From Lentisphaeria bacterium (GTDB lineage Bacteria; Verrucomicrobiota; Lentisphaeria; JABSQK01): DNA of 40,311 bases. Of the stretch, positions 15,476-35,455 are shown in pieces; the first letter of the stretch is position 1, and each line of letters opens with the position of its first letter. The notes beneath the pieces are model-generated. The model did no database searches. It was not told the origin of the DNA and saw only the letters and a list, made by a program, of their open reading frames with translations. The position numbers and the translations under genes are program-made. The stretch spans positions 1-40,311 of the forward strand of contig JABSQK010000307.1 of assembly GCA_013215875.1 (NCBI GenBank). The letters are read 5' to 3'.

Positions 15476-16297
15476 TTATTTTTCCGCCTCAAAAATTGTA
15501 GGAAATGGGTTGCTTAGGGCATCTGAATATAGGGTCATTAATTCGATTTTTCCAAGATGCGGGCACTTTTGCATGGCTCGTGTCTCATATTTAAATGCAC
15601 ATTTAAGATTATAGGACTTTTGCAGGTATTTTGCTAGGTCGACGCGATTGATTGCCGGAGCTGCAATGTGGCGGATGCCACAGATTTCACTTTCTGCATA
15701 GTCCATAATGAGCCTGCAAAGGGCATTTGTATACACGGCAGAGCGTGATTCGTCCTCTATGATGGTCATGGGCAATTGCTGAGAAGCACGGTATTTTAGC
15801 CAATCCAAATGACCGCTTCTTCCGTTAATTGATGGACCTATAGGCAAGCCAAAGCGTATAACAAGCGAGTTTCTGTTTTCCTGGACGCGAGTTTCAGCAG
15901 CTACCCGGCTTTTTCCATAGACAGATATGGGGCAGGGTAGGGAGTCTTCTGTATAGCTTCCATCTGCACCAAAAACATGATCGGATGACATATAGATAAA
16001 GCGCACCGATTGAGGTAATTCGTTGAGCATTCTCTCAATATGTGCAACATTTATCTCTTGAGCCCAGGCTGGATTTGTTTCACATTGCTCCACATCGCAT
16101 ACCGCATGGCAATAAATGATGTGACTGGGCTGATATTTCGCAATAATTGAGCGAATCCAGCTTGTTGATTCGAGCTCAAGCTGTTGCCAATTATTTTGAG
16201 GTGATTTATTTGGGGGAATAAAAGGGATTAAGTCAGGGTAGTTGATTGCCAGGTTGTAGCCACAAATTGAGCTCGCTCCGAATAGAAGCGCTTTCAC
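15476..16297 (-). CDS. RmlD-like NAD(P)-dependent sugar-nucleotide reductase (extended SDR)
   Basis: A 273-residue extended short-chain dehydrogenase resembling dTDP-4-dehydrorhamnose reductase. The N-terminal Rossmann motif is GASSICGYNL; VRFIYMSSDHVFGADGSYTEDS matches the RmlD SSDYVFDG region; ISVYGKSRVAAE supplies the Tyr-x-x-x-Lys pair; and RFGLPIG follows. No other rhamnose genes are nearby, so the substrate is not established. The start is GTG, and GTGA overlaps the stop of the upstream phosphodiesterase-like gene, so they are co-translated. Confidence 0.8.
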   Translation of the reverse strand: MKALLFGASSICGYNLAINYPDLIPFIPPNKSPQNNWQQLELESTSWIRSIIAKYQPSHIIYCHAVCDVEQCETNPAWAQEINVAHIERMLNELPQSVRFIYMSSDHVFGADGSYTEDSLPCPISVYGKSRVAAETRVQENRNSLVIRFGLPIGPSINGRSGHLDWLKYRASQQLPMTIIEDESRSAVYTNALCRLIMDYAESEICGIRHIAAPAINRVDLAKYLQKSYNLKCAFKYETRAMQKCPHLGKIELMTLYSDALSNPFPTIFEAEK

Positions 16298-17628
16298 GAT
16301 TGAATTAAAGCAGAAATATCGAGCATGGAAATGGTCTCACGTTCCCAATCTTTATAGTTGCTGATGAAAACGGGTCCCTTTTGGGGGTCTTTTGCCAAGC
16401 GGCCATGACTGCCTTTTACAAACGATGTATCTAGGGGTATGGCGTTCATCTGGTAGCGCATGCCTATCTTTTTTCGAGCTAAAGCCAATCCGGCGCGTTT
16501 TTTACCGCCTTTAGGATCAAAGAAGAGTTCACGGGGGTCATAGCCCGGTTTATTGTGAATATCGATGGTATTGGCAAAATCCGGTCGGTCCTGATCATTT
16601 AACCAATAATCATATGTAAACCAGTTCTCTTCATCGGCAATGGCAATTAATTCGCCAGATCGGGCATGATTTACGCCCATTTCAGCTTTTCCATCGCTAT
16701 CCAGGACACGCGCTACACCTGATATGCCCTGTAGCAATGTGCGTACTTTTGAGCTTGTTTCATCATCTTTGCAGTAAATATGAGCAATTTGATGATCCAC
16801 AACGGCAAATGCAGCGCTGCTACCAAAGTCGATCAACTCGCCAGTGGCATTTTTCATGACGGATAAGAATCCTGCTTCCCGCAGGTAAACGTTCAAGGAA
16901 ATGGCATGTTTCACGTCCTCAATGCCATATTCACTGGCAACAATAATCCGGCAGTCTTTTTCCTGAAAATGCTGCAAAATAATATCGATGATGTCATCGA
17001 GCTCTTTCAGGTTGCGAATGAGCGTTTCAGCATCGTTTCCGAAGCGTTGCAGGTCATAATCCAAATGGGGTAGATAGCAGAGCCCCAGATCGGGGTTTGT
17101 GAGGTCAAATGCCGTGCAAAAGCTTTCGGCGATCCATTTCGACGAACGACTATCGGCTAAGGGTCCCCAAAAGTTGAAAAAAGGGAATTCGCCATGTTTT
17201 TCGTTTAATTGCTGCTTTAAGTCATGCGGATATGTATAAATATCCGGGCTTTTTCGTCCATCGCTATGGTAAGCTGGGCGTGGGGTTACAGTTGCGCTCA
17301 CATCCGTATTCATTGCATACCAGAAGAAATGTTTTAAGACAGACATGTCCTTACTTTGCCAGAGCAGTGGGGCATCAATTAGTCGCTGGCTTTGGCGCCA
17401 GAGCCAGCCTTCGCCGAGCTCACGAAAATACCAGCCATTGCCTACAATGCCGTGTTCTGAGGCTGTTTTTCCCGTAAGCATGGATGTTTGTGCAGTCGTT
17501 GTCAGGGCGGGAAACACACCTTCCATTGGGCAAATAAAACCGCCGTCACTGAAGGCTTTCAGTTTTGGCATACGCGAATCGACCATATCAGGTGTCAGGC
17601 CAACAGTATTTATTAGGATCGTTTTCAT
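16294..17628 (-). CDS. Alkaline-phosphatase-superfamily protein (nucleotide pyrophosphatase/phosphodiesterase-like)
   Basis: A 444-residue protein of the type I phosphodiesterase/nucleotide pyrophosphatase group, most like the EboF-type subgroup: FPALTTTAQTSMLTGKTASEHGIVGNGWYFRELG near the N-terminus, YLPHLDYDLQRFG in the middle, SEYGIEDV, and a C-terminal KPGYDPRELFFDP and GSHGRLAKDP. The nucleophile region (TTT) is present. The usual first metal-binding Asp is replaced (ILINTVGL) and the usual SDHGM is SEYGI, as I recall for this subgroup. No other ebo genes are in the window. No signal peptide. Substrate unknown; it is coupled to the RmlD-like gene. Confidence 0.78.
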   Translation of the reverse strand: MKTILINTVGLTPDMVDSRMPKLKAFSDGGFICPMEGVFPALTTTAQTSMLTGKTASEHGIVGNGWYFRELGEGWLWRQSQRLIDAPLLWQSKDMSVLKHFFWYAMNTDVSATVTPRPAYHSDGRKSPDIYTYPHDLKQQLNEKHGEFPFFNFWGPLADSRSSKWIAESFCTAFDLTNPDLGLCYLPHLDYDLQRFGNDAETLIRNLKELDDIIDIILQHFQEKDCRIIVASEYGIEDVKHAISLNVYLREAGFLSVMKNATGELIDFGSSAAFAVVDHQIAHIYCKDDETSSKVRTLLQGISGVARVLDSDGKAEMGVNHARSGELIAIADEENWFTYDYWLNDQDRPDFANTIDIHNKPGYDPRELFFDPKGGKKRAGLALARKKIGMRYQMNAIPLDTSFVKGSHGRLAKDPQKGPVFISNYKDWERETISMLDISALIQS

Positions 17629-17755: not shown

Positions 17756-18682
17756 ATGCAACTAGACATTAAGACAAATGATAAACTTGATCAACTGCGT
17801 GCCATTCTTAATACTCACATTATTGGCAATTCCTTCCAAATAGATTTATCTTTAACCAGTTTAATTGCCGGCGGACACATCTTAATTCAAGGCAATCCGG
17901 GTACAGGGAAAACCTCCTTTGCCAAGCTTCTTTCCGATATGATTCGTTGCAATTATAAGCGCATCCAATTCACTCCTGATTTACTGCCAGCGGATATTCT
18001 GGGATTTTCCATGTTTAACCAGAAAAACCAGGATTTTGAGTTCATTGAAGGACCCGTTTTTACAAATATTTTATTGGCCGATGAGATCAACCGTACCACT
18101 CCGCGGATTCAAAGTGCGCTTCTCGAGGCGATGAATGAAAAACAGGTTACCATCGATGGAAAAACCCGTCAGCTCTCAGACCTGTTTTTTGTTATTGCCA
18201 CCCAGAACCATTTTCATACGACAGGAACATACCCACTTCCAGAATCTCAGCTCGACCGTTTTCTTATCTCCTTTGAAATGAATTTGGCCAATGCGGAAAC
18301 AAATGCAGAGATCTTACGCCTGCATTTATCTCAGGAAAATACCCCAGAAGCTGTCATAAGTGAAGCAGATGTTTTAAGCTGGCAGGAATCCTGCCGAAAT
18401 ATGACAGTGAGTGATACATTGGTTGATTATCTTGGACGTCTTGGTGAAGCCTGTAATAATGATAAGTCCTTTCGTACGAGCATTTCCAGTCGTGCGCTCC
18501 TGGCACTCATGCGTGCATCACAGGCCTGGGCATTTTTAAATGAACAAACGGCCGTCTACCCGGAAGATGTTAAACTCTTGATGCCCTTTGTATTTGCGCA
18601 TCGTTTACAACTTAAGGCAGGCAATAAAAACTTCACTGTTCATGACCGATTGGATGAGATTCTAAAACAAACAGAAATCTAA
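17756..18682 (+). CDS. MoxR family AAA+ ATPase
   Basis: A 308-residue AAA+ ATPase. Walker A is GNPGTGKTS, Walker B with the MoxR signature is LADEINRTTPRIQSALLEAMNEKQVT, sensor 1 is VIATQNHFHTTGTYPLPESQLDRF, and the C-terminal lid contains TSISSRALLALMRASQAWA and the closing FAHRLQL. MoxR ATPases act as chaperone-like partners for DUF58 and VWA proteins. It is the first gene of a MoxR-DUF58-transglutaminase operon, with only a 3-base gap to the next reading frame. Confidence 0.95.
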   Translation: MQLDIKTNDKLDQLRAILNTHIIGNSFQIDLSLTSLIAGGHILIQGNPGTGKTSFAKLLSDMIRCNYKRIQFTPDLLPADILGFSMFNQKNQDFEFIEGPVFTNILLADEINRTTPRIQSALLEAMNEKQVTIDGKTRQLSDLFFVIATQNHFHTTGTYPLPESQLDRFLISFEMNLANAETNAEILRLHLSQENTPEAVISEADVLSWQESCRNMTVSDTLVDYLGRLGEACNNDKSFRTSISSRALLALMRASQAWAFLNEQTAVYPEDVKLLMPFVFAHRLQLKAGNKNFTVHDRLDEILKQTEI

Positions 18683-18685
18683 ATC

Positions 18686-19078
18686 ATGGCTGTTCAACGT
18701 ATTGAGATTCATTTGGACCACATCAAGTTCCCGGTTCCGGGGTTTCGTGGTTATCTCGTCTTATTTGCCAGTATGTTGTCTATCTACTTCGGTTATTTTT
18801 TTCAAGATATAATTCTAACAGCCATTGGAACTTTTCTGCTCTTTTTTCTGGTGCTCTCGTTCTACTTTTGCCGGCGCAACCTCAAGGATATGCGCTTAAC
18901 ACGGTATTCAGCTGCTGAGGTGTTTGCAGCATATCCGCTTAAAATTCGCTATCATATTGAGTCCGGAGATAACAAACAGCATTTTCAATTTGCCATTTAT
19001 GATTCCTTTTGTGGACATAGCTTTGAAAAGCCTGGTGAGTTGCGCCGCAAAGGAAAAATCTTGATGTCAGTGAATTGA
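18686..19078 (+). CDS. DUF58 protein, N-terminal half (frame broken at an A5 run)
   Basis: A 130-residue frame carrying two membrane segments (about residues 22-55) and the start of the ectodomain-like beta region. It ends at a TGA just where DUF58 proteins continue. A one-base change at the run GGAAAAATC (near 19052-19060) would join it to the next frame as RRKGK|NLDVSELNEPQD, giving a normal-length DUF58 protein. The window of overlap between the two frames is 19039-19078. It may be a sequencing error, an inactivating deletion of one A, or -1 slippage on AAA. On its own this half has no complete domain. Confidence 0.75.
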   Translation: MAVQRIEIHLDHIKFPVPGFRGYLVLFASMLSIYFGYFFQDIILTAIGTFLLFFLVLSFYFCRRNLKDMRLTRYSAAEVFAAYPLKIRYHIESGDNKQHFQFAIYDSFCGHSFEKPGELRRKGKILMSVN

Positions 19079-19824
19079 ATGAGCCTCAAGATTTGAAAGC
19101 ATTTACACAATTCAAAGAAAGGGGTGTGTGGGATTCATTCCCCATTCGAATTGAGTCCCGTTTCCCATTTGGTCTTTTCTGCAGCAGTTATCAACAAATT
19201 GTCGATTTCGAAATTACTGTCTTTCCCGAACCGCTTGAGGACCCGAACTTGATTCCCTTAAATTTTGCCAAAGTCGGTTCAGATGATATTGCCGTAAATG
19301 AATTAAACGAAGAATTTTACAAAGTGCGTGAATATCGCAATGGGGACCCTTTGAGATTGATAAATTGGGCCTTGTCGGCAAAACACAGCCAGCTGGTTGT
19401 CAGTGAATATCAAAGCTTGAGCAACAGTCAGTACCTGCTTGTTTATCATGCCAGCAAGATCAAATCGGCAGTTGTGAAAGAAGACAGCAGTTTAATTCTT
19501 AGAGCATTAAGTACGCTCATCTTGAACTTCAAAAATGAACATCGCACGCTGATATTTATCGCAGATTTTAACAACTGGGAGCGTATTGAGATCGTCAATG
19601 ATCATAGCATGAACGAAGCTTTAAAAAGCCTTGCCAGGGCAGATGTCAAAAGTACCCATGCCATTTCAAAACTCAAACATGTTCTTGAATCACACCAGGA
19701 TATGCACATCATACTTTGTAGCCATTTAGAAATTGAAAACTGGAACACACCCGACTTATCCCCCTATCAAATCATTTGTCTCGATGGCAATCTCGACTGC
19801 ACGGAGATGTCATATGAAGCGTAA
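19075..19824 (+). CDS. DUF58 domain protein, C-terminal half
   Basis: A 249-residue frame holding the DUF58 hallmark REYRNGDPLRLINWALSAKHSQLVVSEYQ and the preceding RFPFGLF and VFPEPLEDPN segments. The only possible start near the break is TTG at 19075, which has no good ribosome site, supporting the view that this is the second half of one gene with 18686-19078. DUF58 proteins occur with MoxR ATPases and TgpA-type transglutaminases in a membrane-linked system of poorly known function. It is followed by the transglutaminase gene, whose ATG lies inside its last codons. Confidence 0.85.
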   Translation: MNEPQDLKAFTQFKERGVWDSFPIRIESRFPFGLFCSSYQQIVDFEITVFPEPLEDPNLIPLNFAKVGSDDIAVNELNEEFYKVREYRNGDPLRLINWALSAKHSQLVVSEYQSLSNSQYLLVYHASKIKSAVVKEDSSLILRALSTLILNFKNEHRTLIFIADFNNWERIEIVNDHSMNEALKSLARADVKSTHAISKLKHVLESHQDMHIILCSHLEIENWNTPDLSPYQIICLDGNLDCTEMSYEA

Positions 19825-21745
19825 ACGATTTGCTATCCTTATGTTCCTCATTCAGCTCGCTTTTCTGGCAGTTCTGAGCTTCAGCTGGCTGCTCGCACTG
19901 CCGCTGATCTGCCTGTTTATTCAATTGCTTTCGGGTACGAAGAAAAAAATCTCAGTTGTTCTGATTCATTTCAATCCGATTATTTTTGGTGCAGTGAGCA
20001 TGTCGTTTATGTTTAGCTTACAATATGTCTTACTCTTGGCATCTATTTATTTACTCATCTTTCTCATTGGCCGGGAACGTCTGGATTTTCAAAAATACCA
20101 GTTTAACGGGGCACTATTTTATTTATTAGAAACCGGTTTTTCATTGGTCTATTGTTATTATGCATTCAGTTTATATTTGCCCGATTATACACAAACACTG
20201 ATTCTCTATTGCTGTTCTATTGTATCTGTTTGCATTTCATTGCGGCTTGTCTTAACCGATTTCAGATTTAAGAAATCGGTCAGCTTGCATCTCTATCGCA
20301 TGCCTCTTTCGATTATGTTGACATCTGCATTTCTTCTTCTGCTGGCATTTCCCTATATCAAATCGGGCAAGAAGAAACAATCATTTTTGAATAACCCTCT
20401 ACAAGTTGATTCTAATGTACTTATTCTGGATGCGCCCTCGAAGAATAAAAAGCCGGAGGTTATTGCCTACTTGGAAGCAAAGAAAAAGCTCAAAAACGTC
20501 CCCTATTTGAGGGTCCGCAATTACAGCCTTTTTGAGGGTAATGTCTGGAAGATGGCCGATACTAAAGTGTCCTGGATTCAAGATCCGGATGATAAACAAA
20601 AAGATGGTTGGATCCAAATTGGAAAAGCGGATAAAAATGTGATTTCCTATCACATTTATCAGAAAAAAAGCAGCTCACACAGGCTTCTTTATTTAGGCAA
20701 TCTCAAGCGTATACACTTAGGCCAAATCCTCAGCTCAGGAGATGGCAATTTTCAAGTACCTGTCTCAACCAGGATAAATATTAATTACGAAATTGAATCA
20801 AGCACAGTTTTTTTTAATTCAAAAAGGCACCGACGAATAAATACACGTGCCAGTGCCAAAATGTATACCGAATTACCTCAGCACCCTTTTATAGATAAGG
20901 TCAAAACCCAGGCGAAAGATTTGACAGAGTATGCCACATCGGACGGCGAACGAATTGCCATACTGTTGAGTTACTTTAAAGATAATTTCACCTACGAACT
21001 GTGGAAAGATGCAGTGGGCAATCAAACGATGAATGACTTTCTCTTTAAAAAGAAAAAAGGCCACTGCACCCTTTTTGCCAGCGCGATGCTGTTTTATCTC
21101 CGGTCATTGGATATTCCCTGTCGTATGACTGTGGGCTATATTGGTAAACTTCACGACCCTCAAAAGAATCTATATTTGTTCAGTACAGCCTCGTATCATG
21201 CCTGGGTCGACGTGAAATATAATGGTCAGTGGATTACGGTAGACCCAACACCAGCGGCTCAACGACTGCCGCAATTGAACACTGCCAACAACGAATTCAA
21301 TATCAGTGAATTTGCAGCCCTGGGTTCAGGATCATTTGACGACCTCAAAAATGGCAAATCAAGACTTATTGACCCAAGAAAGATTCGTGCAGTAGCGAGT
21401 AAAGCAGCTATTTATATATTGCCGCTTATCATTCTTACACTTATGCTCTGTGGGGGTAGAAAAAAGAATCGTGTGGAGACGAAAAAAGCGCCGAAGAAAA
21501 AAGCGCCGAAGAAAAAAGCCGCGGAAACAATTTATCAGTTAATCAAAGTGCAGTATAAAGAGCGGGATATTCCTGGAGAAACGCCAAAAGAGTTTCGTCG
21601 GCGACTGAAAAAAACAAAACATGTTGTAGATGAACTGGATGCTTTTATCGACTATTATTACAAAATAGAATACGAAAATGAACTCGCCGATCCAGAAAAA
21701 GAAACTGCCTTTACGGAACAATTTTCGAAAGAGAAAGTGTCCTGA
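19814..21745 (+). CDS. TgpA-type membrane transglutaminase-like protein
   Basis: A 643-residue protein from the ATG at 19814 (MKRKRFAIL), which has GGAG seven bases upstream; the track start at 19733 lies within the DUF58 frame. About five or six membrane helices occupy residues 5-190, followed by a large extracytoplasmic part with the transglutaminase core. The triad is C418 (KGHCTLFASAM), H462 (SYHAWVDV) and D477 (TVDPTPAA). A last helix (about 530-550) leads into a Lys-rich linker and a DUF4129-like cytoplasmic tail (IPGETPKEFRRRLKK). This matches the Pseudomonas TgpA layout. It completes the MoxR-DUF58-transglutaminase operon. Confidence 0.92.
   Translation: MKRKRFAILMFLIQLAFLAVLSFSWLLALPLICLFIQLLSGTKKKISVVLIHFNPIIFGAVSMSFMFSLQYVLLLASIYLLIFLIGRERLDFQKYQFNGALFYLLETGFSLVYCYYAFSLYLPDYTQTLILYCCSIVSVCISLRLVLTDFRFKKSVSLHLYRMPLSIMLTSAFLLLLAFPYIKSGKKKQSFLNNPLQVDSNVLILDAPSKNKKPEVIAYLEAKKKLKNVPYLRVRNYSLFEGNVWKMADTKVSWIQDPDDKQKDGWIQIGKADKNVISYHIYQKKSSSHRLLYLGNLKRIHLGQILSSGDGNFQVPVSTRININYEIESSTVFFNSKRHRRINTRASAKMYTELPQHPFIDKVKTQAKDLTEYATSDGERIAILLSYFKDNFTYELWKDAVGNQTMNDFLFKKKKGHCTLFASAMLFYLRSLDIPCRMTVGYIGKLHDPQKNLYLFSTASYHAWVDVKYNGQWITVDPTPAAQRLPQLNTANNEFNISEFAALGSGSFDDLKNGKSRLIDPRKIRAVASKAAIYILPLIILTLMLCGGRKKNRVETKKAPKKKAPKKKAAETIYQLIKVQYKERDIPGETPKEFRRRLKKTKHVVDELDAFIDYYYKIEYENELADPEKETAFTEQFSKEKVS
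21481..21519. repeat. 15-bp tandem repeat encoding KKAPK units in the TgpA-like protein
   Basis: The unit GAAAAAAGCGCCGAA is repeated twice and begins a third time (ending in GCCGCGG), encoding the KKAPKKKAPKKKAAE linker right after the last membrane helix. Each unit has an A6 run, so the region is prone to length change by slippage. Confidence 0.65.
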
Positions 21746-33466: not shown

Positions 33467-33904
33467 ATGAAATTACTCTATGTGCTATACGATAGAAATT
33501 GTGAGTTGTGCCGGCGCTGCAAAAACTGGCTGGCCAAGCAACCGAAGTATATCGATATGATTTTTATTGCACAGCAGAGCAATCAAGTAAAAATCATAAT
33601 GCCGGATTTGGTCAATGACTTGAGCCTCGATGATTTAATTCTAGTCAGCGATACGGGTTTGGTTTACAAAGGAAAAAAGGCTTGGATCATGTGCATGTAT
33701 GCATTGAAAAACTACCGAGAATGGTCCTTGCTCTTCGCCAGGCCTGGTTTTGATGTATTGACCAGAGCAGTCGTGCATCAGATCAGTTCAAACAGAAAAA
33801 GTATTTCCGGGGCATTATTGAAATTGAATGCGAGTAACTGTGAAACGGGAAATTGTGATATTCACAGTAATGACGTGAACAAAAACAGTAGGAGAGGATT
33901 ATGA
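33467..33904 (+). CDS. DCC family thiol-disulfide oxidoreductase (DUF393)
   Basis: A 145-residue thioredoxin-like protein. The DCC motif is YDRNCELCRRC (usual form YDGxCxLC), with the first two cysteines spaced as a CxxC redox site and a third cysteine directly after. KGKKAWIMCMYALKNYREW matches the family's S/G-x-A-x-x-x-x-L region, and there is a Cys-rich tail (NASNCETGNCDIHS) not typical of the family. The stop overlaps the start of the TIGR01777 gene (ATGA). It probably acts on thiols of the neighbouring membrane protein or of an oxidoreductase; this is inference. Confidence 0.88.
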   Translation: MKLLYVLYDRNCELCRRCKNWLAKQPKYIDMIFIAQQSNQVKIIMPDLVNDLSLDDLILVSDTGLVYKGKKAWIMCMYALKNYREWSLLFARPGFDVLTRAVVHQISSNRKSISGALLKLNASNCETGNCDIHSNDVNKNSRRGL

Positions 33905-34869
33905 AAAAAATAGCCATTGCGGGTGGAAGCGGATACATGGGAAAGCTGCTTATTCATTATTTGATGGGCAGGGGCCATCAGCTGATTGTATTGAGCAGAA
34001 AGGACTTTGAAAATCAGAAAAATCTGGAGTTTGTTAAATGGGATGGGCGGACTCATGGAGCCTGGCATGCGGCTTTGGAAGATGCCGATGTCTTAATTAA
34101 TCTCTGCGGGCAATCTGTAAATTGCCGTTACAATGAAAAAAATAAGCAGGCAATTTATCAATCCCGCTTGAAGAGTACACAGCTTTTAGGCGAAGCACTT
34201 GAGCGACTGGATTGTGGTCCTGAGCTGTGGATGAATGCCAGTTCTGCGACGATCTACAGAAGCAGTAAAGTCGAAATGGATGAAGAGGCACAACATGGAG
34301 AAGGATTTTCAGTTGAAGTTTGTGAGCAATGGGAAAGCCGTTTTTACAAATACAAAAAAACCGGTGCCCGGCAAATTGCCTTGCGAATGGCCATGGTGTT
34401 CGATACGGCTGCAGGTGGCCCATATGATCATATGAAAGAGGCCGTACAACTTGGTTTTGGCAAGGGAATCGGCGATGGAAATCAATATGTCAGCTGGATT
34501 CACGGCCATGATTTATGCAGGGCGATTGACTTTATGCTCATGCACAAGGAGCTTGAGGGAAATATAAATATTTCATCTCCACAGCCTATACCAAATGCAG
34601 ATTTTATGAAGATTATCGCCGATAGCCAAAAGCCCCTATTTCGTATGCGTTGTCCGAATTGGTTGTTAAGCCTTGGGGTAATTGTGAAGCAAACGGAAAA
34701 AGAACTCGTGCTGAAGAGTCGTCGGGTTGTTCCAAAACGATTATTGGATGCCGGCTTCCATTTTCATTATGCAGATTTTGTTGATGCGGAAAAAGAACTT
34801 TCGAGCAGAACAAAATCTGCAACAAATAGCGAAAATGTATATTGCAATATCGATCGCTGGGAGAGGTAA
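33901..34869 (+). CDS. TIGR01777 family NAD-dependent epimerase/reductase-like protein (YfcH type)
   Basis: A 322-residue extended SDR-like protein. The nucleotide-binding motif GGSGYMGKLL begins at about residue 8; VKWDGRTHGAWHAALEDADVLINLCGQSV is the TIGR01777 signature; SRLKSTQLLGEAL, NASSATIYR, VCEQWE and LRMAMVFDTAAGG follow; and YVSWIHGHDLCRAIDFML and the C-terminal RRVVPKRLLDAGFHFHY are also typical. A 40-residue tail extends beyond this. Role unknown. It is coupled by ATGA to the DCC gene and ends one base before the DUF2071 start. Confidence 0.93.
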   Translation: MKKIAIAGGSGYMGKLLIHYLMGRGHQLIVLSRKDFENQKNLEFVKWDGRTHGAWHAALEDADVLINLCGQSVNCRYNEKNKQAIYQSRLKSTQLLGEALERLDCGPELWMNASSATIYRSSKVEMDEEAQHGEGFSVEVCEQWESRFYKYKKTGARQIALRMAMVFDTAAGGPYDHMKEAVQLGFGKGIGDGNQYVSWIHGHDLCRAIDFMLMHKELEGNINISSPQPIPNADFMKIIADSQKPLFRMRCPNWLLSLGVIVKQTEKELVLKSRRVVPKRLLDAGFHFHYADFVDAEKELSSRTKSATNSENVYCNIDRWER

Positions 34870-34870
34870 A

Positions 34871-35455
34871 TTGCAATCTAAGCCGGTATTTTTAGAAGCA
34901 GACTGGTCGTGGCTTATCATGCTTAACTACGAGATCGACCCTGAGAAACTTTTGCCACTTGTACCGTTTGGCACAGAGCTCGACTTTTATAATGGCACGT
35001 GTTATATCAGCATTGTTGGATTCTGGTTTTCAAATACACGGGTAAAAAAGATCGGCTTTCCATTCCATCGCAATTTTGAGGAACTTAATTTGCGTTTTTA
35101 TGTGCGCCGAAAATCAGCCGGTGGCTGGCGCAGGGGAGTGGTATTTGTAAAAGAACTGGTCCCGAAATTTGCCATCGCCTTTATTGCCAGAACACTATAC
35201 AATGAAAATTATATATCACTGCCAATGGCCCACGAGCATATTTTTGAAAATAAAATTCCGCAAAAAATTTCCTATTCCTGGAAGCTAAATAATCATTGGA
35301 ATCATTTGTCTGTTAGCCCTGAAGTAGAAGAAAGATCATTTATTTCAAATAGCGAACAAGAGTTTATCACTGAACACTATTGGGGATATTCTGCCAAAAA
35401 TGAAAATTCCTCAATCGAATATGAAGTGCAACATCCCGCTTGGACATATCGATAA
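34871..35455 (+). CDS. DUF2071 family protein (conserved C-terminus cut off by in-frame TAA)
   Basis: About 194 residues from TTG at 34871, which has GGGAGAGG at ideal spacing and follows the previous stop by one base; the track start at 34727 lies inside the TIGR01777 gene. FLEADWSWLIMLNYEIDPEKLLPLVPFGTELDFYNG, SIVGFWFSNTRV, then LNLRFYVRRK, GVVFVKELVPK and ITEHYWGYSAK are DUF2071 hallmarks. It stops at TAA after HPAWTYR, exactly where the family normally continues. The same frame goes on for 46 codons with the expected ending (see next entry). Function of the family is unknown. Confidence 0.85.
   Translation: MQSKPVFLEADWSWLIMLNYEIDPEKLLPLVPFGTELDFYNGTCYISIVGFWFSNTRVKKIGFPFHRNFEELNLRFYVRRKSAGGWRRGVVFVKELVPKFAIAFIARTLYNENYISLPMAHEHIFENKIPQKISYSWKLNNHWNHLSVSPEVEERSFISNSEQEFITEHYWGYSAKNENSSIEYEVQHPAWTYR

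Follow-up and report, generated by a model that had tools for sequence, protein, structure and literature searches.

A split DUF58 gene in a moxR – DUF58 – transglutaminase operon of a draft Lentisphaeria-class genome is best explained as one gene lacking a single base

The DUF58 gene analysed here is the split member of a plus-strand operon with the order moxR – DUF58 – transglutaminase, which lies in a draft genome of the class Lentisphaeria within a stretch of 40,311 nucleotides (hereafter the window). The split gene is very probably one ordinary DUF58 gene that lacks a single base within or beside the A5 run (19055-19059), and no recoding is needed to explain it. In the sequence as it stands, translation stops after a piece of 130 amino acids, which comprises two membrane segments and the first portion of the soluble region, and the upstream start does not give rise to the DUF58 core.

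The 5' open reading frame (18686-19078, +) begins with ATG and encodes 130 amino acids with two N-terminal hydrophobic segments, and the 3' open reading frame (19075-19824, +) has its first possible start at TTG 19075 and encodes 249 amino acids. The latter lies in the -1 frame relative to the former and is already open at 19039, running on to the stop at 19824, so that the two share only the 40 bases 19039-19078, as the original prediction had described. The TGA stop of the 5' piece (19076-19078) overlaps the TTG codon in a TTGA sequence. Between 19053 and 19061 the sequence is GGAAAAATC, with the A5 run inside it, and the zero frame at the junction reads GGA AAA ATC. This is the likeliest point of the -1 change: coding in the true frame appears to extend to about 19057, after which the 5' frame would add only the false tail ILMSVN before its stop, and joining the frames at this site yields a product of 379 amino acids in which RRKGK is followed directly by NLDVSEL. 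The 3' frame carries the DUF58 hallmark REYRNGDPLRLINW, where it had been placed from the outset, and Pfam recognizes DUF58 there (E = 2.6e-5, with 24.0 bits just above the curated cut-off of 23.4 for PF01882). The 130-residue piece had no Pfam match of its own, and NCBIfam gave no match. A continuous DUF58 protein with N-terminal membrane segments is thus absent from the window sequence, whereas it is present in the relatives.

Both neighbours in the operon are intact, in agreement with the original prediction. Upstream, moxR (17756-18682, +) encodes a MoxR-type AAA+ ATPase of 308 amino acids (Pfam AAA_3, E = 2.5e-59, and AAA_lid_2) with 47-57% identity to its counterparts in close relatives. 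Downstream, a transglutaminase-like membrane protein of 643 amino acids (19814-21745, +; ATG at 19814; Pfam Transglut_core, E = 3.5e-20) has homologues behind DUF58 in the relatives. Shine-Dalgarno sequences in the operon are weak: none was seen for moxR or DUF58, and the transglutaminase gene has GGAG. Divergent from the operon, on the minus strand at 15476-17628, lie a phosphodiesterase/nucleotide pyrophosphatase-like gene and then an RmlD-like sugar-nucleotide reductase gene, with a 4-base overlap.

The relatives support a single gene. In all five of the nearest, the joined 379-residue protein aligns across the junction with an unbroken open reading frame of 379-438 amino acids, in which the counterparts of the 5' and 3' parts (the latter 19039-19824 in the window) are fused; because these frames run unbroken through the junction, the split is to be read as one gene minus one base and not as two genes. 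For three Lentisphaeria (L016/L069, 410 amino acids; L018/L071, 379; L019/L073, 380) the alignment of the joined protein extends from residue 16-21 to residue 353-371; for L017/L070 (417 amino acids) it begins at residue 60, and a Verrucomicrobiales record, L072 (438 amino acids), aligns as well. In these relatives the DUF58 frame sits directly behind moxR (in L071 a stop codon interrupts moxR itself) and before the transglutaminase gene. They were found by an alignment scan of contigs, an earlier single-protein scan of contigs having given no match, and none is closer than about 30% identity, so the lost base is inferred from them rather than seen in a sister strain. The split state was found in none of the five, and the pair of separate genes for which the original prediction had suggested searching relatives was not found, which bears out its claim that both frames belong to one DUF58 protein. 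A class-wide search gave matches in 131 of 198 genomes with an internal stop in none among the matches listed; most of these are more distant DUF58 paralogues, and the set of close orthologues is small.

The coding signal leads to the same conclusion. With codon scores trained on the window's own genome, the 5' piece averages +0.06 and the 3' piece +0.12 bits per codon, like the neighbouring genes, and wrong frames score -0.5 to -1.0. In alignment with a single protein from a relative, moreover, the two pieces cover consecutive stretches, the 5' part about residues 21-100, and the split is therefore more than a chance arrangement of open frames. Across the 40 shared bases, frame 1 scores better as far as GGA AAA, and frame 2 does so beginning with AAA AAT. 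Because the score switches there, and the alignment continues across, the frame change can be placed at the very run that the original prediction had named. In gene order, the two hydrophobic segments, the REYRNGDPLRLINW motif and joined length, the locus resembles the DUF58 (PF01882) genes of other MoxR – DUF58 – transglutaminase operons, and it differs from them in that its frame is broken once in the window's genome.

Could the ribosome itself bridge the two frames? In a programmed or tolerated -1 frameshift, lysyl-tRNA would slip back on GGA_AAA_A, giving a low level of full-length DUF58 protein beside the short membrane piece. The direction of the change, an A_AAA tetramer at the junction, a GGTGA at 19034-19038, some 15 bases before it, that looks like an internal Shine-Dalgarno sequence, and the still coding-like 3' frame would all fit such a mechanism, and the -1 direction and A-rich site are shared with programmed frameshift genes of the dnaX and IS3/IS911 type. 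However, the DUF58 site lacks the heptamer, the stem-loop or pseudoknot signal and the conservation of those genes. No in-frame X_XXY_YYZ heptamer was found at the junction, only the tetramer, and this occurs 1,036 times (about 20 per 1,000 codons) in the window's genome, in every one of the 102 open reading frames of at least 300 codons that were examined. In E. coli, tetramers of this sort that have no stimulator shift, on average, hardly more than background, and even a strong pseudoknot leaves A_AAA the weakest of six clearly shifty ones (PMC4066793). The 121 bases downstream contain no stimulatory fold, at least as modelled without pseudoknots (z = 0.20; 110 of 200 shuffled sequences gave an equally good or better fold), and the five close relatives use one frame throughout, with no conserved frame change. 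A literature search on frameshifting in this bacterial group returned nothing relevant. Since neither heptamer nor fold, neither the frequency of the motif nor its conservation speaks for it, we reject a programmed slip; frameshifting at this junction is not supported, and we consider it very improbable. The original prediction had allowed the frames to be rejoined at the A5 run either by one added base or by a slip back on AAA, and only the first of these is well supported, the second being left with an ordinary motif that has neither stimulator nor conservation.

It is likewise hard to read the two frames as translationally coupled genes, in which ribosomes ending at the TGA would restart at TTG 19075 and make a soluble 249-residue DUF58 piece apart from the membrane piece. 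The TTGA overlap would suit such coupling, and in an operon that does not rely on strong Shine-Dalgarno sequences the missing site says little against it. Nevertheless, most overlapping gene pairs in the window's genome start with ATG, the 3' frame is already coding-like upstream of TTG 19075, where two genes would have no need of it, and all five nearest relatives have a single open reading frame, for which reason we reject this reading and give it only a very slim chance. Least credible of all is that the A run causes transcriptional slippage or phase variation. There is a homopolymer at the junction, but the runs for which productive slippage is described have 8-9 A (PMC1088944), and a run of five is too short. 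Such a run is also unremarkable: the plus strand of the window has 133 runs of five or more A, and 11% of its 40-base stretches contain an A5 run.

We therefore return to a single gene lacking one base. How the base came to be missing is less certain than that one gene was broken. There is about an even chance that the sampled cells carry a real, recent mutation that inactivated the gene, and a somewhat smaller one that the consensus of the draft assembly is wrong at this point. The large GeneTack survey (PMC3711429) classes singleton frame changes confirmed by homology as pseudogenes or recent indels on the one hand and as sequencing errors on the other, with errors expected to make up most of them; the DUF58 split, confined to one genome, confirmed by homology and free of a recoding motif, is like them in each of these respects, and no difference was found. 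An assembly error is plausible on these grounds and because the source genome is a draft assembly (876 contigs, 92.7% completeness, 5.1% contamination).

A codon-score scan for frameshifts over about 249 kb (the window and 19 sampled stretches), which needs long pieces and which short frameshifts can escape, listed 56 adjacent same-strand frame changes, most with an ATG near the junction. Five doubtful candidates, four without a convincing ATG and one with a TTG start and a Shine-Dalgarno-like site, were examined with Pfam, and all proved to be distinct gene pairs (SerRS/MatE, MoaC/MobB-MobA, ACP/DUF58, epimerase/DUF2071 and DUF58/TPR). Within the sampled sequence, then, no clear frameshift other than the DUF58 split came to light; this speaks against an assembly that is prone to indels throughout, though a lone error would still be compatible with it. 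Elsewhere in the window, an epimerase (DUF1731) gene at 33898-34869 and a DUF2071 gene at 34715-35455 have open frames that overlap by up to 155 bases; according to Pfam they encode two different proteins, and they form an ordinary gene pair with no frameshift.

Damage to the same operon in two relatives slightly favours a real lesion, although the pattern was noticed after the fact in few genomes and we give it little weight. In an ALOHA Lentisphaerales MAG (G008; L046/L071, JAKVBD010000010.1), moxR (L046:5917-6867) has an in-frame TGA at L046:6502-6504 and the transglutaminase gene (L046:7962-10091) an in-frame TAG at L046:8826-8828; neither the intervening DUF58 gene nor any other aligned gene in the 15 kb has an internal stop. 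In G006 (L045/L070) an IS110-family transposase gene (L070:3557-4945, -) lies between DUF58 and the transglutaminase gene, and the transglutaminase frame loses similarity after DKYGWV at its 3' end, near the contig end. It is possible, though in our judgement unlikely, that this operon has been switched off repeatedly in Lentisphaeria by independent lesions (the frameshift in the window, nonsense codons in G008 and the IS110 element between genes in G006), which would point to conditional loss; a functional recoding site is less likely.

In summary, the locus should be annotated as one frameshifted DUF58 gene and not as two proteins. Draft genomes commonly contain single genes broken in this way, and in itself the present case matters little. 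If independent lesions of this operon were confirmed in more Lentisphaeria, however, they would give a modest clue to the conditions under which bacteria can do without the MoxR/DUF58/transglutaminase system.
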